A stretch of 64,000 nt of DNA. Source: Frankineae bacterium MT45 (GTDB taxonomy: Bacteria; Actinomycetota; Actinomycetes; Mycobacteriales; Jatrophihabitantaceae). The notes below the pieces were generated by a model, which saw only the letters and a program-made list of their open reading frames with translations, was not told where the DNA came from and ran no database searches. The stretch lies in the NCBI GenBank assembly GCA_900100325.1, contig LT629697.1, forward strand, positions 434,001 to 498,000, in the 5' to 3' direction. Below are positions 49,647-64,000 of this stretch, in pieces (the first letter of the stretch is position 1; every line of letters starts with the position of its first letter). A program made the translations under genes and the position numbers.

Positions 49647-50495
49647 GTGGCGAACACTCCCGACGACGGCGCGACCGACGTCCTCGAACCGCCAGAGCCG
49701 CCGGCCCAACCGCCGCTCAAGCCGCACCGTGACCGCCTCGGCCTGCTGCTGAGCGGAGTCGGCCAGACGCTGATCACCGCCGGCGTCATCGTGCTCCTCT
49801 TCGTCGTCTACGAGGTGTGGATCACCAACATCTTCAGCGCGGCCAAGCAGGAGAAGGTGCACACCGAGCTCATCAAGCAGTGGGAGTCGCCCACCGGTGA
49901 CGACCCGGTGGTGCAGGCCGAGCTCGGTCTACCCAACGGCAAGCAGTACACGATCCCGGCCGGCACCGGCATCGCCGTCCTCTACATCCCGCGCTTCGGC
50001 AAGGACTACGCGAAGACGATCGTGGAGGGTACCGATGCCTCCGACCTGGAGAAGGGCCCCGGCCACTACACCGGCACCCAGCTTCCGGGGCAGAAGGGGA
50101 ACTTCGCGATCGCCGGGCACCGGGTCGGCAAGGGTGAGCCCTTCCTGAACCTGGACGAGCTGCTCCCCGGGGACGCCGTGGTGGTGCAGACCAAGGCCAC
50201 CTGGTACGTCTACACGGTCCTGGGTGACCCGGCCACCAAGAACCTCTCCACCACCAACGCGCTGGGTGTCCCCGGACGCGAGATCGTGCACCCGTCGAAC
50301 ACCACGGTGATCGACCCGGTGCCCGGCCACGCCGGCGTCCCCGCATCGAAGGCCACCGAGTCGCTGATCACGCTCACCACCTGCCACCCCAAGTTCAGCG
50401 CAACCGAGCGGATGATCATCCACGGGACGCTGACCCGCACGGTCCAGGCATCCGGATCGGCACTACCGAAGGAACTACCCGGAGGGACGCTCTAG
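49647..50495 (+). CDS. Class E sortase
   Basis: A 282-residue membrane-anchored transpeptidase. One helix at about 32-55, then the sortase barrel. The catalytic His is in AIAGHRVGKGEPF, Cys in TLTTCHPKFSATERM, and Arg follows in the same segment. Class E sortases recognise LAXTG-like motifs; none is seen in the secreted proteins of this window. GTG 49647, two bases after the DUF881 stop, indicates coupling. Confidence 0.92.
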   Translation: MANTPDDGATDVLEPPEPPAQPPLKPHRDRLGLLLSGVGQTLITAGVIVLLFVVYEVWITNIFSAAKQEKVHTELIKQWESPTGDDPVVQAELGLPNGKQYTIPAGTGIAVLYIPRFGKDYAKTIVEGTDASDLEKGPGHYTGTQLPGQKGNFAIAGHRVGKGEPFLNLDELLPGDAVVVQTKATWYVYTVLGDPATKNLSTTNALGVPGREIVHPSNTTVIDPVPGHAGVPASKATESLITLTTCHPKFSATERMIIHGTLTRTVQASGSALPKELPGGTL

Positions 50496-52141: not shown

Positions 52142-52244
52142 CCGGTCGTACCGCAGAATTCCCCCAGATCGCTTGTGATCGTTCAACGCCGTCCGTAGCT
52201 TGTTACGGACGCGGCCACATCGTGTGCATCTCGGGGGAGGCGCA

Positions 52245-52931
52245 GTGCCAGCAGTAGTTGGTGACGCTCGGCGCCGCCCCCGCACCCTCCGATACCGCTC
52301 CGCCCGACTGCTCGCCGCCGGCCTGACCTCTCTTCTCGCCGTGCTCACGCTGACGAGCTCGCTGGCCGCTCCGGCCGGGGCCGCACCGACCCCGCTGCCG
52401 CAGATCGTGGCCCCGATCCACATCGTCTACGCGGTCGGCGGAACGCTGCAGCTGCCGGCGATCGAGGGCTACGGGACGCTGAAGCCGGGGACGCTCGCCG
52501 CCGATGTCAATCTGCGCAACGGGGAGTTGACCGGCAAGGCAACCCTGCCCGACATCCAGATCACCGGTGCCATCTTCGGCTTCGTCCCGTCCGTGGTCAC
52601 CGCCGCCTTCCGCCAGTCCGGCCCGCTGAACGGCACCCTGAACCCGGCCGGTGAGGTCACCGCCGAAGTGACGGTGGCCCTGGCCCTCAAGGCGGTCAAC
52701 GCCTTCGGCTCGATGCCGCTGTCGCTGCCGGGTTGCCGGGTGCAGGCACCGATCAACATCATGCTGAACACCGAGAAGAACGCGCCGTTTCGGGCCACCG
52801 GTGCCGCCAAACTCGTCGGCACCTTCGCCACCGGGCCGCTGGTCGGCTGCGGGACGCTGAACGCCTCGCTCAGCCGGCTGTTCCAGAGCGTCTCGAACAC
52901 TCTGTCGCTGAGCCTGACGCTCAAGCAGTAG
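52245..52931 (+). CDS. Secreted protein, stand-alone copy of the C-terminal domain of the 60-kb protein
   Basis: A 228-residue protein with a signal peptide (about 20-47, ending APAGAAP). The mature part aligns over its whole length with residues ~723-896 of the large secreted protein at 60097: GELTGKATLPDIQITGAIFGFVPSVV here matches a TTTVPNFTINAAIFGFIPATVV there. Two cysteines, C164 and C202, are 38 apart, as in the large protein (C830 and C868). The GTG at 52245 follows a perfect GGGGGAGG. Its 3' end overlaps the convergent DUF6986 gene by 11 bp. Function unknown; an envelope or matrix role is inferred. Confidence 0.75.
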   Translation: MPAVVGDARRRPRTLRYRSARLLAAGLTSLLAVLTLTSSLAAPAGAAPTPLPQIVAPIHIVYAVGGTLQLPAIEGYGTLKPGTLAADVNLRNGELTGKATLPDIQITGAIFGFVPSVVTAAFRQSGPLNGTLNPAGEVTAEVTVALALKAVNAFGSMPLSLPGCRVQAPINIMLNTEKNAPFRATGAAKLVGTFATGPLVGCGTLNASLSRLFQSVSNTLSLSLTLKQ

Positions 52932-55735: not shown

Positions 55736-56800
55736 TCACTCGAAGAATTGGCTGCTGTCGATCAGCGCTGCCTGATCCGGCGGCAGCGACGACAGCCAGC
55801 GGGCGCCGTAGTCAGTGGCCGCGGATTCAGTGACCGAACCGTTGATCCGCAGCCGGGAGATGCCACCGTCGGGGTAGATATCCAGCCGAACCCGGGAGAC
55901 CGGGGAGGCCGCCGCGACGCGGAAGCGATGCTCGGAGTCGGGGAGGAGCGGTGAAGTGGCCAGCAGTTCGGCCCCGGTGTCGGCGTCGCTGAGGCGGGCC
56001 CATCCAGGCGCATTCCCAACAAAACGCAGGGTGTCTATGACCACGTTGTGCAGCACTCCCGGCTGACCGAGCTCCACCACCAACCAGTCGTTTCCATCAT
56101 CACGGCGACGTGCCGTCTCCCAGCCGTCGGACATGATGGCCGCTCGGCCGGGTGCGAGCACATTCGCCGGCGAGCTGTAGAACATGTTGGAGCAGTCGAG
56201 GATCCGCCCGCCGTTGACGGTGGCCGCCAGGTCGATCCGTCCGCCGAGGAAGCGCGGGTCGGGGCGCGCCTCACCGTAGATCCGGAAGCGGGCGACGCCG
56301 CCGTCCGGATAGATACTCAGACGGACGTGCGTGGCGAGCGGGCTGTTCGCCGCGGCCGGGAAGACGTTGGGCGAGTCACCCTGCAACCCAGTCCGCTCCA
56401 GCACGGTGAACCACTGAGCGTTCTGCAGCTCCGCCGGTGTCGGGTGCCCGAGCAGCATGGTTGCCTCGACGGAGGCGAAGGGCGGGAAGTTGCCGCGGAA
56501 GAAGGCGGTATCGATGTTCACGCCGCGCACCAGGGCCGGGGTGGCCAGTCGGATGATCGCCCAGTCGGAACAGTCGGCGCTGCCCAGGGACTGCGCAGCC
56601 TGGGGCTGATCACGCCGTCGCCGCGTCTCCCACCCGTCGTAGACCTTTCCCTTGGTGGTGAAGGTCGTCGGGTCGTGGGTCGCCGGGCCCGGGCTCACCA
56701 GGTTGTAGGCGTCGGCGAAGAACTCGTCGTTGCAGCAGACCACGGCACCGCCGAGGGCACCGCTGGCCAGGTCGGGGAGGGCTCGGAAGTCTTCGGTCAT
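55736..56800 (-). CDS. alc: Allantoicase
   Basis: A 354-residue enzyme hydrolysing allantoate to ureidoglycolate and urea. It is made of two similar jelly-roll domains; the repeated signature KVYDGWETRRRR (first half) and MSDGWETARRRDDGNDW (second half) is visible, together with VDTALRFVGN-like VIDTLRFVGN and VNIDTAFFRGN. ATG 56800 (MTEDFRALPDLASGALGG) overlaps the allB stop by four bases; the frame extends upstream only as an overlap. Confidence 0.93.
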   Translation of the reverse strand: MTEDFRALPDLASGALGGAVVCCNDEFFADAYNLVSPGPATHDPTTFTTKGKVYDGWETRRRRDQPQAAQSLGSADCSDWAIIRLATPALVRGVNIDTAFFRGNFPPFASVEATMLLGHPTPAELQNAQWFTVLERTGLQGDSPNVFPAAANSPLATHVRLSIYPDGGVARFRIYGEARPDPRFLGGRIDLAATVNGGRILDCSNMFYSSPANVLAPGRAAIMSDGWETARRRDDGNDWLVVELGQPGVLHNVVIDTLRFVGNAPGWARLSDADTGAELLATSPLLPDSEHRFRVAAASPVSRVRLDIYPDGGISRLRINGSVTESAATDYGARWLSSLPPDQAALIDSSQFFE

Positions 56801-58143
56801 GCGCTGCCCCCTCGCTCGATGAGTCGCCCGGGCGTGGTCGTGCCGTCGATCAACTCGCCCCGCAGATACGTCTGCTTCACCACTCCGCGAAGCGTAGCCG
56901 CCGCGTAGGGAGTGATCGGATTTCGATAGCGCAGCCCGGCCGGGTCGACGGTGAACGTCTCCTCCGGAGCGAAGATGCTGAAGTCGGCCGGCGCTCCGAC
57001 GTCCAGTGTGCCTCGCTTCCCGAGACCGGCCAGCGCGGCCGGACGCACCGCCATCCAGCGCACCAGGTCGCTCAGTTGCAGGCCCCGCTGGGACGCCGCC
57101 GTCCACATCAGCGGCAGCCCTGACTGCAGTGACGAGATCCCGCCCCAGGCCGCCCCGAAGTCACCCTGGTCCAGGAGCTTCAGCTCTGGAGTGCAGGGCG
57201 AGTGATCACTGACGACGCAGTCGATGAGCCCCTCCCGCAGCCCGTCCCAGAGCCGCTCCCGGTTCGCCTCGTCGCGAATCGGCGGGCAGCACTTGAACTG
57301 GGTAGCGCCGTCGGGGACCGTCTCGGCGGTGAGCACCAGGTAGTGCGGGCAGGTCTCGACGCTCAGCGGTAGACCCTCGGACTTCGCGGCGGTGATCGCC
57401 GGCAGCGCACCGGCCGCCGAGAGGTGGACGATGTGGGTCCGGCACCCGGTGGCCCGGACCGTATCCAGCAGCATCGCGATCGCGCTGGACTCGGCTTCAG
57501 GGGGCCGTGAGTTCATGAAATCCCGATAGCTGCGGCCATTCGGCGCCGGTGCGGTGTCGAGGACGCTCTGATCCTCGGCATGAGCGATGAGCAGGCCGTC
57601 GAAGGACTTGATCCGGGCCATCGCTTCGCGCAGTTCGGACGGGCTCAGCGGCGGGAACTCGTCTACTCCGGAGGGGAGCAGGAAGCATTTGAAGCCGACC
57701 ACACCGGCGCGCCAGAGCGGCTCCAGCTCCTCCAGGTTCCCCGGCACGGCCCCACCCCAGAGGGCGACGTCGATCTGCAGTTGCCCCTGCGCGGCCGAGC
57801 GTTTGGCCTCCAGGCCGGCCATCGTCGTGGTGGGCGGGATGCTGTTGAGAGGCATGTCGACCAGCGTGGTGACGCCCCCGGCGGCGGCCGCGGCGGTCGC
57901 GGTCGCGAACCCCTCCCACTCGGTGCGCCCGGGCTCGTTGACGTGCACGTGGGTGTCGACCAGGCCGGGGAGGAGCACGTGATCGTCGTCGAGCGTGAGG
58001 ATCTCCGTGGGCGGCAGGTCGCCGAGGTCGTCGAAGGGGTGCAGCGATTCGACGCGGCCGTCCCGTATCCGCAGCAGGCCCGATGTCTCATCGTCGGCGC
58101 TGACGATTCGGCGCGCTCGCACAGCCCTTACCGCGGACCCCAC
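56797..58143 (-). CDS. allB: Allantoinase
   Basis: Cyclic amidohydrolase opening allantoin to allantoate, about 448 residues. Metal-binding motifs are VDTHVHVNEPGRTEWEGF (HxH), GFKCFLLPSG (carbamylated Lys), LLIAHAED, THIVHLSAAGALP and VVSDHSPCTP. GTG 58143 or 58122 (VRARRIVSADDE) is the likely start; the frame runs further but without similarity. First gene of the minus-strand operon and divergent from uraD. Confidence 0.92.
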   Translation of the reverse strand: MGSAVRAVRARRIVSADDETSGLLRIRDGRVESLHPFDDLGDLPPTEILTLDDDHVLLPGLVDTHVHVNEPGRTEWEGFATATAAAAAGGVTTLVDMPLNSIPPTTTMAGLEAKRSAAQGQLQIDVALWGGAVPGNLEELEPLWRAGVVGFKCFLLPSGVDEFPPLSPSELREAMARIKSFDGLLIAHAEDQSVLDTAPAPNGRSYRDFMNSRPPEAESSAIAMLLDTVRATGCRTHIVHLSAAGALPAITAAKSEGLPLSVETCPHYLVLTAETVPDGATQFKCCPPIRDEANRERLWDGLREGLIDCVVSDHSPCTPELKLLDQGDFGAAWGGISSLQSGLPLMWTAASQRGLQLSDLVRWMAVRPAALAGLGKRGTLDVGAPADFSIFAPEETFTVDPAGLRYRNPITPYAAATLRGVVKQTYLRGELIDGTTTPGRLIERGGSA

Positions 58144-58318
58144 AGTGCGCCCCCTTGGTTGCCTCTCGGACTGCGTCTCGGTCCGCCCCGAACCAGCATC
58201 GATGGATCCACGGTACGTCGGCAATGTTTCCGCTAGCGTTCGGAGTAGGCGCAGCGACTGGCGAGGTGCGGAGAGCCGCCGATACGCACGCACCGGCAGA
58301 GGAAGAGCAGGTGATGGC
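58144..58318. promoter_or_regulatory. Divergent promoter region allB/uraD
   Basis: A 175-bp non-coding gap between the two purine-catabolism operons, reading away from each other. A shared regulator site is likely here, but no clear palindrome was recognised. Confidence 0.45.
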
Positions 58319-58882
58319 ATGAGTGAATCCAATGGAACCGCGTCTGCATCGACGCCACCGACACTGACGGTCGCCGAGTTCGACGCGGCCACCGCAATCG
58401 ACGCCGCAGCGGAGTTGCTGCCGTGCTGCGCGAGCCGGCGCTGGATCACCGAGGTCGTCAACGCCCGCCCCTTCGCGACCCTCGAGGTGCTCACCGCCGC
58501 CTCCGATCAGGTTCTGGCTGGCCTCGCTTGGGAGGACGTCCTGGAGGCCGTCGAGGCGCATCCGCGCATTGGAGAGCAGGCCGCCGGGGCCGAGCGGGAG
58601 TCCGACTGGTCGAGGAGCGAACAGGCCGGTGCCGCCGGGGCCGATGCCGAGACCCGCAGCGAACTGCTGGACGGCAACCAGTTGTACGAGGAGAAGTTCG
58701 GCTTCGTCTTCCTCGTCTGCGCCAGCGGCCTCAGCGGCGACGAGCTGCTGGCCAACCTCAACGCCCGCCTGGTCAACGACGAGGAGAGCGAACGAGAAGT
58801 GGTGGCCGGAGAGCTGCGCAAGATCGTCCGCCTGCGTTTGGCTAAGTCATTTAGCCCCGACGATGACACGATCGCGTTGTAG
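58319..58882 (+). CDS. uraD: 2-oxo-4-hydroxy-4-carboxy-5-ureidoimidazoline (OHCU) decarboxylase
   Basis: A 187-residue enzyme turning OHCU into S-allantoin, the third step from urate. The family motifs are LLPCCASRRWITEVVNARPF, EAHPRIGE (catalytic His) and LYEEKFGFVFLVCASGLSGDELLANL. ATG 58319 is preceded by GAGGAAGAGCAGG. It is followed after three bases by uraH. Urate oxidase itself is not in the window. Confidence 0.92.
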   Translation: MSESNGTASASTPPTLTVAEFDAATAIDAAAELLPCCASRRWITEVVNARPFATLEVLTAASDQVLAGLAWEDVLEAVEAHPRIGEQAAGAERESDWSRSEQAGAAGADAETRSELLDGNQLYEEKFGFVFLVCASGLSGDELLANLNARLVNDEESEREVVAGELRKIVRLRLAKSFSPDDDTIAL

Positions 58883-58885
58883 CGC

Positions 58886-59218
58886 ATGAGCCTCTCAACC
58901 CACGTCCTCAACTCGGTGATCGGACGACCCGTGGCCGGGATGCCGGTGCTGCTGGAACGCCGCGATGAGCAGGGCTGGCAGCGCCTCGCGCAGCACGTCA
59001 CCAGCGAGGACGGGCGGATTGGCGACTTCGCCGCCGACCTCTTGGAAGAGTTGGCGGCCGGGGTGTACCGGCTCACCTTCGACGTCGAATCGGTCTTCCC
59101 GGACGGCAGTTTCTACCCGGAGATCGCCATCGCCTTCCGGGTGCAGGACCCGGCGCAGCACTACCACGTGCCCATCTTGCTAAGCCCTTTCGCTTACTCC
59201 ACCTATCGAGGAAGTTGA
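58886..59218 (+). CDS. uraH: 5-Hydroxyisourate hydrolase (transthyretin-like)
   Basis: A 110-residue protein that hydrolyses 5-hydroxyisourate to OHCU, acting just before UraD. N-terminal STHVLNSVIGRPVAGMPVLL with the catalytic His, the middle RIGDF, and the C-terminal YHVPILLSPFAYSTYRGS are diagnostic. It lies between uraD and deoC with gaps of 3 and 6 bp. Confidence 0.95.
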   Translation: MSLSTHVLNSVIGRPVAGMPVLLERRDEQGWQRLAQHVTSEDGRIGDFAADLLEELAAGVYRLTFDVESVFPDGSFYPEIAIAFRVQDPAQHYHVPILLSPFAYSTYRGS

Positions 59219-59224
59219 CCGCAG

Positions 59225-59887
59225 ATGAGTCTCTCCCGTTCTGAACTGGCGCAGTACCTGGACGTCACCCTGCTGGCCCCGACCGCCACCGCCGCCGATG
59301 TCGAGACGCTCTGCGCGACCGCGGTCGACGTCGGTGGCTTTGCGGTCTGCGTGTCGCCGTCGATGGTCGCGGTCGCAGCGAAGGTTCTCCCGCCGACGGT
59401 GGCGCTGGCCACGGTCTGCGGGTTCCCGTCCGGCGCCCACGAAGCCGGCGTGAAGGCGTACGAGGCGTCGGCGTCGGTGCAGGCCGGCGCCGGTGAGATC
59501 GACATGGTGGTGAACCTCGGCCTGGTAAAGACCCAGCAATGGGACGCCGTGACGGCCGAGATCGCTGCCGTCCGCGCCTCCTCCACAGTGCTGCTGAAGG
59601 TCATCATCGAATCGGCCGCCCTCACCGACGACGAGATCGTGGCCTGCTGCCGAGCCGCGGAGGCTGCCGGCGCTGACTACGTCAAGACCTCCACCGGCTT
59701 CCACCCCTCCGGCGGAGCCTCGGTGGGGGCGGTCCGGCTGATGCGGGAGACGGTCGGCGACCGGCTCGGGGTGAAGGCATCCGGTGGCATCGCGACCACC
59801 GAGCAGGCCCTGGCGATGATCGACGCTGGGGCGTCCCGACTGGGTGTCTCTCGCCCGGGGGCGGTGCTGGCCGACGCCGGCGAGTAG
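59225..59887 (+). CDS. deoC: Deoxyribose-phosphate aldolase
   Basis: A 220-residue class I aldolase cleaving 2-deoxyribose 5-phosphate to glyceraldehyde 3-phosphate and acetaldehyde. [36 protein letters not shown], the Schiff-base Lys in [16 protein letters not shown] and VKASGGI are visible. Six bases after uraH, so nucleoside-sugar and purine-base breakdown share an operon. Confidence 0.95.
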
Positions 59888-60064: not shown

Positions 60065-60096
60065 CAGTGGTGCGTCGCGCTCGGAGGGAGCAGCCA

Positions 60097-62787
60097 ATGC
60101 CCAGCGGAGTCATGTCCAAGCGCAAGATCAGATCGATCGGTGGGGTCACCGTCGTAGGCCTCGTCACTGGTCTCACGGCTGTTCTGGCCGGCGGCGCAAG
60201 CGCCGCATCGGCCCAGTCGATCGACGTCATCATCCCCACCACCTGCACCGTTCCGGTCGCCGGTCCTGAGTCCTACGACGCGCGGGTCACCGCCACCCTG
60301 CCCAGCAACGCCGTCGTCGGGCAGAGCGTCGCGCTTCAGGACTTCAACATCAGCATCCTGCTCAACGTTGCCACCACGGACGCGCTGCAGATCCTCGGCG
60401 CGACGACCATCGCGGGATCGATCACCGCCGGGGCGAGCCTCACCAACGCCTCGCCATCCGACCTCTCGATCACCGCCGACGTGCCGAGCACCCCGGTTCC
60501 GCAGGAGCAGGACGAGAACGGTGATGGCCCGGCCTTCACGATCAGCGCCTCCGGAGTGTCGCCAACCGCGACGCTCACGGCGACCGGCACAGCGGTGCTC
60601 ACCGCCACCACCGTCAGCGCATTCTTCGACCCGAAGAACGCAGCCGGCACCAGCGTCCTGCCGGCGGCGAAGCGGAACATCCCCTGCACCTTCAACGCCG
60701 GGGACCACACGCTGGCCAGCATCTCGGTGACCGATGGGCCAACGCCTTCGGCCGGGTTCACGCCGACTCCATCTCCGACGCACCCGACTCCGACTCCGAC
60801 GCCCGTTGTCTCGCCCACTCCGTCCGTGACGCCCGGGCCGACACCCCTTCCCGGAAGCAACTGGACAATCAACAAGACCTTCGGCGTCACCTGCCAAATT
60901 CCGGTGGCCGGACCCGAACACTATGACGTGAGTGTGCAGGCGACCAACCCGCTCAACGCGGCCGCCGGGGATTCGGTGAGCCTGCAGAACGTCACCCTCA
61001 CCGTGCCGTTCAACAGCCAGTCCACTAACGCGCTGCAGATCCTGGGTAGCACCCACCTCGACGGGTCGATGAGCCTCGACACCTCGATCAGCGATGCCAG
61101 CCCAGCCGTGCTGACCTCGTCGCTTCCGATCTCGGTCGACGTTCCGCAGAGCGTGGACGAAAACGGGGACGCACCGACGTTTATCGCGCAGGGCACGCTC
61201 TCCTCCTCCACCTCCGCAACCCCGTTGGCGGCCGGGATCGCCTCGCTCGAGGCATCGGGATTCACGCTCTACCTCGACCCGAAGAACGACAGCGGTGCGA
61301 GCACACTGCCCGAATCCAAGCGGAACATCCCCTGCACCCTCGACGGAGGACAGCCGGTTCCGCTCAGCCAAATCACGATCGCTGACTCCGACCACGCCCC
61401 GACGCCGACGCCCGCTATCTCGCCGACGCCGCACCCGTACCCAACCGCGACGGATACGCCGCCCATCACGCCAACCCCGGTCGTGACTGCGACTCCCACG
61501 CCGGCCGGTCCGACTCCGACGCCGACCCCGCTACCGCCGCGGAACTTCAACTCCGACATCGGCGTCACCTGCACGCTTCCGGTGGTCGGGGCGCAGAGCT
61601 ACCAGCTCCATATCGGAGCGAACGTGCCGACTGCGGTCAGCGCCGGTGACACCGTCACCCTCAATGACTTCTACGTCAGCATCCCGGGCAACGTAGCCAC
61701 CACGGATGCGTGGCAGATCCTGGGTGCCACCACCATCGAGGGGACAGTTGCCCTCGGCTTGACGGCGTCCGATGCCACACCGAACGCGTTCAGCTTCAAC
61801 GGCAGCATTGCGCCGACCGACATCCCGCAGGCGATAAACGAGGATGGGGACGGCCCGCCGTTCCCCGTGATCGCCACCGGTGACGCTCTCACCTTGAAGG
61901 CCACCGCGTCGGGGTACATCAGCCTCGCCCCGACTACCTTCGCACTCACGCTCAACCCGAAGAACGCGGCCGGCGCGAGCGTGCTCCCGGTGGCCAAGCA
62001 AACGATTCCTTGCGTCTTCAACCCTGGCCAGGGCCTGGTCCTCGGGACGGTCCCACCGGGGGGCGCTCCGGTGGTAACTCCGACGCCACCGGGTGGCCCG
62101 ACGCCGTTCCCGACCCCTCCGGACGCCGGCGGCCTACCGACGCCGACGCCCGTCCCGACTCCGGTCGGGTCGCCGGTCCCGACGCCGCGCCCGACCCCGC
62201 TGCCGTCGGCGGTCCCGACGCCACTGCCGACGCTGCGGCCGACACCGGTCCCGACGCCGGTTCACATCAAGGCCAGCTACAGCGCAGCCGGATCGGCCGT
62301 CGTGCCCGGCCTCAATGGGACGGCGAAGATCGCCGGGGCGCAGATCTCCGTGGATGTCGATCTGTCGGCCAATAAGTTCACCGGCACGACGACCGTCCCG
62401 AACTTCACCATCAACGCAGCGATCTTCGGGTTCATACCGGCGACGGTGGTCGCCTCCTACCTGCAGGTCGGTGCCCTCTCCGGAAGCATTGCCGCGAACG
62501 GTCGGGACATCTCGGTCGACCTCACGGCGCGTCTGGGCATCGTGTCGATCAAGGCACTCGGTCTCTCGCTGAGCTCGAGTACGTGTGCGACCGCTTCCCC
62601 GGCCAAGATCCATCTGGCCAGTGATGGCACCGGGAAGTTCTCGGTGCTTCAGGGTGGCACGGTGACCTCCAAGTTCGCGGTCGGGAAGATGGCCAACTGC
62701 GGCCCGCTGACGGACATCCTGAACACCTACGTCTCCGGGGCCAGCAACACGCTGACCCTGCAGCTGTCGGCGGCCCACCTCAGCTAG
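60097..62787 (+). CDS. Large secreted protein with three Cys-framed repeat modules and a C-terminal domain
   Basis: An 896-residue exported protein. Signal peptide about 1-40 (basic SKRKIR, hydrophobic GVTVVGLVTGLTAVLAGG, ASA). Three similar modules begin and end with a cysteine exactly 147 residues apart: C50-C197, C266-C413, C492-C639. Each contains an ATTDALQILGATT-like core, a VP.....DENGDGP turn and a DPKNAAG..VLP..K.. IPC end. They are joined by Pro/Thr linkers (about 213-253, 434-482, 652-722). The last ~170 residues form another domain with C830 and C868, shared with the protein at 52245. The modules may belong to a DUF6801-type family; function unknown. Confidence 0.85.
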   Translation: MPSGVMSKRKIRSIGGVTVVGLVTGLTAVLAGGASAASAQSIDVIIPTTCTVPVAGPESYDARVTATLPSNAVVGQSVALQDFNISILLNVATTDALQILGATTIAGSITAGASLTNASPSDLSITADVPSTPVPQEQDENGDGPAFTISASGVSPTATLTATGTAVLTATTVSAFFDPKNAAGTSVLPAAKRNIPCTFNAGDHTLASISVTDGPTPSAGFTPTPSPTHPTPTPTPVVSPTPSVTPGPTPLPGSNWTINKTFGVTCQIPVAGPEHYDVSVQATNPLNAAAGDSVSLQNVTLTVPFNSQSTNALQILGSTHLDGSMSLDTSISDASPAVLTSSLPISVDVPQSVDENGDAPTFIAQGTLSSSTSATPLAAGIASLEASGFTLYLDPKNDSGASTLPESKRNIPCTLDGGQPVPLSQITIADSDHAPTPTPAISPTPHPYPTATDTPPITPTPVVTATPTPAGPTPTPTPLPPRNFNSDIGVTCTLPVVGAQSYQLHIGANVPTAVSAGDTVTLNDFYVSIPGNVATTDAWQILGATTIEGTVALGLTASDATPNAFSFNGSIAPTDIPQAINEDGDGPPFPVIATGDALTLKATASGYISLAPTTFALTLNPKNAAGASVLPVAKQTIPCVFNPGQGLVLGTVPPGGAPVVTPTPPGGPTPFPTPPDAGGLPTPTPVPTPVGSPVPTPRPTPLPSAVPTPLPTLRPTPVPTPVHIKASYSAAGSAVVPGLNGTAKIAGAQISVDVDLSANKFTGTTTVPNFTINAAIFGFIPATVVASYLQVGALSGSIAANGRDISVDLTARLGIVSIKALGLSLSSSTCATASPAKIHLASDGTGKFSVLQGGTVTSKFAVGKMANCGPLTDILNTYVSGASNTLTLQLSAAHLS

Positions 62788-62807
62788 CCCACGGCGCGGC
62801 CCGCTCG

Positions 62808-62863
62808 CCTTGTAGTCCGAACTTCCGAATCGCACCCCGAAACCGGAAGTTCGGACTACAAGG
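62808..62863. terminator. Long perfect hairpin after the large secreted protein
   Basis: CCTTGTAGTCCGAACTTCCG and its exact reverse complement at 62844-62863 form a 20-bp stem with a 16-nt loop, beginning 20 bases after the stop codon. No T-tract follows. Likely a terminator; the length is unusual and a small palindromic repeat element is an alternative. Confidence 0.7.
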
Positions 62864-63033
62864 AGCCCCCGGCTGCCCGTCAAACCCAACAAATGTTCGG
62901 AAACTATATAAATTCCGCAAACCGTTGTAATTCCGGAAGGTTGACCGTAGGTTACTTCCTGCGGCGATCAGACAGCTACTCACAGTAGCGGGCAACCGGC
63001 TCGCTGGCGATCGTCGCTAACCGAGGGAGACAT

Positions 63034-64000
63034 CATGGATTCACCCTTTGAGAAGCGAAAGCTGCTCAAATCCGTATCCGGCGTGACGGTCGTCGGCCTG
63101 GTGGCGGGCCTCGCCACCGCGGCGGTTGCGGTCGTCAGCGGTGCGGCGCCGGCGTCGGCGGTCACGACGACCACCATCACCAAGACGCTCAACACCACCT
63201 GCACCATCCCGGTCGCCGGCGCGGAGAAGTACGCCGCGGTCGTCAAGGCGACCATCCCGACCAGCGCCAAGGTGGGTGACAAGATCGCCCTGCAGAATTT
63301 CTCCATCACGGTGACGCTCAACTCGGCGACCACCGACGCGCTCCAGATCCTGGGCGCCACCACGCTGCAGGGCTCCATCACGTCGGCGGCGACCCTGAGC
63401 CACGCCTCGCCGTCGCCGCTGTCGATCACGGCGACCGTCCCCACCACCGCGGTCCCGCAGACCGTCGACGCCAATGGGGACGGCCCGCCGTTCAGCATCA
63501 CCGCGACCGGCACGTCGCCGACGGCCACCTTCACCTCAGCCGGTACGGCAACGCTCACCGCCACCACAGTGAATGCGGTCTTCAACCCCAAGAACGCAGC
63601 CGGCACCAGCGTGCTGCCGGTGGCCAAGCAGTCCATCCCCTGCTCCTTCGACAGCGGGCAGAGCCTGGTTCTGGCCACGGTGCCGGTCGCGGCCACGACG
63701 CAGGCAGTGAGCAAGACGCTCAACACCACCTGCACGATCCCGGTCGCCGGAAACGAGACCTACGCGGCGAAGATCACCGGCACGCTGCCGATCACGGCCA
63801 AGGTCAATGACTCGGCCACGCTCTCCAACCTGAAGATCAGCATCCTGCTGAACACGGCGACGACGGACGCGCTGCAGATCCTGGGCGCCACCACGATCGC
63901 CGGCACGATCACGACGGGGACGACGATTACGCACGCAACCCCAGCCACCCAGTCGACGACCGCCACGGTGCCGACCACCGCGGTCCCGCAGACGGTCGAC
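63034..64000 (+). CDS. Secreted repeat-module protein, 3' end outside the window
   Basis: Open frame from ATG 63034, after GAGGGAG, to the end of the window (322 residues, no stop). Signal peptide about 1-42 (EKRKLLKSVSG, VTVVGLVAGLATAAVAV, APASA). The first module has C56 and C203, again 147 apart, and a second starts at C233. The modules match those of the upstream gene (NSATTDALQILGATT, VDANGDGPPF, NPKNAAGTSVLPVAKQ). Here they are separated by a short linker rather than a Pro/Thr stretch. Tandem paralogue of the 60097 gene; its C-terminus cannot be seen. Confidence 0.85.

Follow-up and report, generated by a model that had tools for sequence, protein, structure and literature searches.

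To our knowledge, the route by which lipids and sterols travel from outside to the Mce importers of actinobacteria is an open question. The corresponding mce operons carry genes for Mkl, YrbE/MlaE, Mce, and Mas; a 2007 survey of actinobacterial mce operons describes the Mkl and Mas genes, and the part of its account available to us names no secreted DUF6801-type gene (PMC1810536). No report on DUF6801 (Pfam PF20611) was found in the open-licence PMC literature, and the same literature yielded none on DUF6801 at the head of mce operons. The closest solved structure in fold is 3LSO, a putative membrane-anchored protein of Corynebacterium diphtheriae, whose domains are named Ig-like in the portion of text available from PMC10034466.

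In this study, we analyzed P1 and P2, two tandem exported proteins encoded at about C1:494097-498759 in Frankineae bacterium MT45, at the end of a 64-kb stretch of DNA (the window, C1:434001-498000; Table 1) from a genome of 4.23 Mb on a single contig. An earlier note on this DNA had pointed to DUF6801-like domains, and the Pfam model bears this out, with 144.9 bits for P1 and 94 bits for the window part of P2 at a curated cut-off of 26, which the modules of this genome exceed. Compared with the described operons, one DUF6801 clade is encoded at the operon head, whereas P1 and P2 fall outside this clade and away from mce genes.

Modules of P1 and P2 and their cysteine pair

P1 is 896 aa long from the ATG at 60097, or 906 aa if the GTG at 60067 is the start, and P2 extends 759 bases beyond the window end. 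Both were called exported from signal peptides judged by eye. A C-terminal LAxTG motif, hydrophobic stretch, and basic tail were looked for in P1 and P2 and are absent. Upstream of P1, positions 55736-59887 hold genes that by eye resemble those of ureide/purine breakdown (allantoicase, allantoinase, OHCU decarboxylase, and hydroxyisourate hydrolase) and a deoxyribose-phosphate aldolase gene, with no visible tie to P1 or P2.

Table 1. Features in the window (positions count from the first base of the window)
Feature	Position	Strand	Remarks
Class E sortase	49647..50495	+	192.8 bits on core, cut-off 160
Stand-alone exported CTD barrel protein	52200..52931	+	start codon uncertain
P1, exported, with Pro/Thr linkers between three DUF6801 modules and a predicted barrel at the C-terminus	60097..62787	+	signal peptide judged by eye
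P1 module 1 (DUF6801)	60223..60735	+	Cys codons 60244, 60685
P1 module 2 (DUF6801)	60871..61386	+	Cys codons 60892, 61333
P1 module 3 (DUF6801)	61549..62064	+	Cys codons 61570, 62011
P1 CTD, predicted closed beta-barrel	62269..62781	+	Cys codons 62584, 62698 (38 apart)
P2, exported, three DUF6801 modules, without barrel or LAxTG	63035..64000, stop at window-equivalent 64759	+	574 aa
P2 module 1 (DUF6801), AlphaFold2 query	63179..63694	+	Cys codons 63200, 63641
P2 module 2, truncated by window end	63731..64000	+	full in genome, spacing 147

The earlier note had described modules framed by cysteines exactly 147 residues apart, and the residue positions agree with this in all four complete modules of the window, three in P1 and one in P2. 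Numbered from GTG 60067, the cysteines of P1 lie at residues 60/207, 276/423, 502/649, and 840/878; those of P2 within the window lie at 56/203 and then 233. Read beyond base 64000, P2 proves to have three modules, each with the same spacing. The sequences between the cysteines diverge widely, as had been noted, with an ungapped identity of 32-68% from module to module, and the proposed constant ends are present throughout: CTVPVAG, CQIPVAG, CTLPVVG, and CTIPVAG at the start, and KRNIPC (twice), KQTIPC, and KQSIPC at the end. P2 module 2 ends in KQKIAC, which widens the end motif to K-x-x-I-[PA]-C. The Pro/Thr-rich linkers between the P1 modules are likewise as described. The window modules are homologous repeats, and their match in spacing is not due to chance.

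As a constraint on the family, however, the exact value of 147 does not hold. The spacing is 147 in 17 of the 18 DUF6801 modules of the window genome and 146 in the remaining one; when the congeneric genome G001 is included, 28 of 29 modules have 147 and one has 146. In contrast, 62 of 70 modules from named loci have a spacing of 140 or 141, and relatives as a whole span 124-162, mostly 140-141, with the value differing between genera. The 147 spacing is thus a genus trait, and its uniformity mainly reflects recent duplication without insertions or deletions.

P1 and P2 are part of a genus-specific expansion that is not linked to mce genes. The window genome encodes 13 DUF6801 proteins, which together hold 18 modules, and one further, weak match falls short of the cut-off; the genes include two after P2 and six clustered at another site. 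The modules of this genus share with PF20611 the cysteine pair near the domain ends, a family feature derived in this analysis and not from the Pfam text. They differ from canonical DUF6801 modules, which mostly have the shorter spacing and no D-x-N-G-D-G-P loop, in carrying this loop, in the spacing of 147, and in having up to three modules per protein. In alignment A1, the loop lies within an insertion of several residues in the window modules, and presumably it resembles a calcium loop. It is present in 14/14 modules labeled as window genome, in 12/12 from G001, and in 4/92 others; these four come from window-genome loci, which leaves the loop in 0/88 remaining modules. A phage origin was rejected, since no relatives were found among viral contigs, and so was a plasmid origin, since the window module has no plasmid relative; a canonical module gave four Streptomyces records on plasmids.

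Both cysteines are kept in 112/112 unique complete DUF6801 modules, a count from which 18 of 130 rows that do not span both Cys columns were dropped. The 53 named loci had been retrieved with two patterns, one of which includes the first cysteine. A recount on loci retrieved chiefly through the Pfam model and without the cysteine pattern gave both cysteines in 56/56 modules, in partial overlap with the 112-module set and after 23 of 79 rows that do not span both cysteines were dropped (seven with a cysteine just outside the alignment, ten cut at locus edges, and six with broken or doubtful frames). Homologues that freely lose one cysteine, the case that would speak against a disulphide, were searched for among DUF6801 relatives, and none was found.

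In the 53 aligned modules, only C8, P93, and C155 are invariant. The invariance of the two cysteines would by itself be compatible with a metal-binding or redox-active pair in place of a structural disulphide. However, these modules contain no CxxC, and no His, Asp, or additional Cys is invariant among them as a possible ligand; we regard such a function as very improbable. With only two cysteines per module, invariance throughout, export, and a confident beta-sandwich model, one disulphide per module, as originally suggested, is likely.

The AlphaFold2 model of P2 module 1, built from a 53-row alignment, has a pLDDT of 97.4 and a pTM of 0.88. It shows an all-beta sandwich with one helix, in which C8 is placed in strand 1 and C155 in the penultimate strand. 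Its top solved match is 3LSO residues 45-211 (Z 12.0, rmsd 2.6, 147 residues), followed by a next row at Z 7.6; model and crystal agree in fold over the entire module, at 16% identity. By sequence, the module profile, which rests on an alignment of only 53 rows, matched neither 3LSO nor another solved structure up to E 10.

The predicted C-terminal barrel domain

P1 had been taken as a protein of a single module type, which it is not: it ends in a different domain of 171 residues, the CTD. The AlphaFold2 model of the CTD has a pLDDT of 93.4. Alignment A4, which holds 49 rows after two of 51 selected CTDs (L085 and L109) were left out, shows both C106 and C144 to be invariant. Among 90 rows that span both positions (4 of 94 do not and were dropped), the pair is retained in 88, and both cysteines are absent together in two. 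These two are the orthologous paralogues L039:3460-5058 and L057:1336-2934, outside A4, with Val and Ala instead; such a joint loss is as expected of a disulphide. The former paralogue also has a very long Pro-Thr repeat linker. The CTD is a domain without a Pfam-A or NCBIfam model. The 49 members gave no NCBIfam match. Four families in Pfam-A each hit a single member (E 0.008-0.03), and we take these hits as chance.

Structural comparison of the CTD returned many kinds of closed barrels, with no single family prevailing. OmpW, with the same closed-barrel arrangement (Z 12.8), and designed barrels form the highest rows; the polyisoprenoid-binding protein TT1927b (Z 8.9) and YceI (Z 8.2), both lipid binders, share the closed barrel. 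Foldseek found no solved structure under E 1e-3, and a sequence search of solved structures gave six chains, none better than E 0.06 and all taken as chance. The presence of the domain in a named Streptomyces (L124) makes a membrane barrel of the OmpW kind unlikely, as this genus has no outer membrane.

The CTD matches 6 of 396 genomes in the phylum sample, and DUF6801-barrel proteins were found in Pseudonocardiaceae, Streptomyces, and Actinomadura. In L185:4220-7933 (C1 near 2845710), the CTD lies at the C-terminus of a protein that by eye resembles a GH3 glycosidase, and this fusion points to the barrel as an exported domain that is mobile between proteins. The CTD might then be an envelope-attachment or carbohydrate-binding domain that holds exported proteins at the wall, with DUF6801 as a mere spacer. 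Its C-terminal position on several kinds of exported protein, including the GH3-like enzyme and, by eye, an Ig-like repeat protein, agrees with such a function. However, stand-alone CTD proteins exist, one of them in the window, and some lie beside mce genes (L109 and L136). We consider this reading unlikely.

A class E sortase gene is located 1.7 kb ahead of the stand-alone barrel gene, and the genome has five sortase matches. LAxTG is the signal of class E sortases, and no LAxTG protein that could be the partner is apparent within the 64-kb window. Elsewhere in the genome, the paralogue L040:2965-4464 (C1 near 400000) has such an anchor, LASTG, and its neighbors by eye resemble genes of fatty-acid metabolism (thiolase, reductase, dehydratase, and esterase).

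DUF6801 genes at mce operons

MlaE or Mce genes are present in 14 of the 53 named loci, 13 from Pseudonocardiaceae and 1 from Actinomadura; the loci were anchored on DUF6801, so that the informative point is nearness within 8 kb. Pfam confirmed MlaE or Mce genes in all three loci that were scanned. A second family gene occurs in 13 of the 14 mce loci; six of these genes are barrel-only, and seven are divergent DUF6801-barrel genes that adjoin MlaE/YrbE genes on the same strand. MlaE was not detected in Umezawaea or in three Saccharothrix loci, where only Mce genes follow. In Actinomadura craniellae, a secretory lipase gene (L123:9237-10532; Pfam LIP, E 1.3e-55) lies between the DUF6801-barrel gene and the mce operon.

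Moreover, 11 of 18 genomes carry DUF6801 no more than 7.5 kb from MlaE, where uniform placement would lead one to expect 0.2; the set comprises 17 genomes selected for DUF6801 or CTD before the MlaE search plus the window genome, with relatedness uncorrected, and G252 was excluded as it has no DUF6801 match. The remaining seven show no link within this distance, and one (G345) has DUF6801 without MlaE. The domain is patchy, with matches in 4 of 41 relatives, 8 of 396 genomes in the phylum sample, and 33 of 394 in the class sample. In the class sample, with the DUF6801 and MlaE scans taken to cover one and the same set of 394 genomes, MlaE is present in 27 of the 33 DUF6801 carriers, in contrast to 102 of 361 other genomes (Fisher p 1.8e-9, kinship uncorrected), and absent from six carriers. 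Based on the listed positions, the two genes are no more than 7.5 kb apart in at least 14 of the 27 MlaE-bearing carriers; among the other 13 are 8 whose MlaE positions are only partly listed.

We read eight loci, seven linked ones and that of the congener G001, with Mkl and mas named by homology or position. In six of them, the DUF6801 gene directly precedes that of an Mkl-type ATPase and shares its strand. In one of the remaining two, about 1.1 kb separates it from MlaE, which lies downstream; the mce operon of G001 has no DUF6801 or CTD nearby. Because three of the six Mkl-adjacent genes (L191, L194, and L196) match DUF6801 without a detectable barrel, the mce-linked genes do not always include the barrel. 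DUF6801-barrel proteins may be an unrecognized extracytoplasmic part of the Mce importer, often encoded by the first mce gene and carrying hydrophobic substrates across the wall, from which the window genus would have derived a multi-module surface set. We advance this suggestion tentatively.

In a tree of 104 modules, the mce-linked proteins form one branch (15 labeled rows and one unlabeled), and the modules of the window genome (18 rows) form a separate one, with branch supports of 99/89 and 100/99 under a midpoint root and with long-branch warnings. P1 and P2 are far from the mce genes of their genome, which occupy C1:3697835-3705249. One DUF6801 gene of this genome does lie downstream of the sole mce operon, on the same strand and about 335-370 bases from the gene at the mas position, according to which start codon is used; however, it groups with the other modules of the window genome, and G001 lacks a counterpart at this site. 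P1 and P2 are thus relatives of the Mce-linked group and not members of it. Since they lie outside the mce-linked branch, their own part in lipid handling can only be inferred.

Architectures and the proposed role

The 53 named loci contain 79 distinct family open frames, some of them truncated by contig ends. DUF6801-barrel proteins account for 47 and barrel-only proteins for 8; 15 combine one or two DUF6801 modules with LAxTG and no barrel, 5 have DUF6801 only, 2 are DUF6801-barrel proteins with LAxTG, and 2 are double DUF6801-barrel proteins. Several modules joined by Pro/Thr linkers, the Ig-like fold, the adhesin, pilin, and cohesin rows among the weak Foldseek matches of the module, and the LAxTG anchors that 16 of 24 open frames with DUF6801 alone possess would all suit structural or adhesive surface fibres, close to the picture drawn in the earlier note, in which disulphide-locked beads on flexible linkers bind cells or matrix without any role in lipids. 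However, a wall anchor is lacking in P1 and P2, most of the family proteins in the named loci consist of one module and a barrel, and fibres leave the link with mce operons unexplained. We consider fibres of this kind unlikely.

We favor a reading, with a probability of roughly 45%, in which P1 and P2 are DUF6801-family proteins exported to the cell envelope. The modules would act as rigid, disulphide-locked spacers on Pro/Thr linkers and would position the P1 barrel within or outside the wall, where it may bind a ligand or the envelope. From the clade of relatives in mce operons, we infer that the original job of the family might have been to capture hydrophobic molecules, lipids among them, on the outer side of the membrane and transfer them to Mce importers, and that the window genus might have multiplied and redeployed these proteins. 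Several observations count against this reading, namely, the distance of P1 and P2 from mce genes, their separate clade, and the state of the mce operon in G001. In addition, OmpW and designed barrels outrank the lipid binders in the structural rows of the modeled CTD, and the CTD on the GH3-like protein is equally compatible with an attachment domain.

The CTD barrel and the family's association with mce operons are more valuable results than the fixed spacing of 147. Collectively, they provide a first functional lead for DUF6801 and for the CTD barrel, and the secreted family at the heads of mce operons offers a concrete candidate, testable in harmless species, for the delivery of lipids or sterols to Mce importers.
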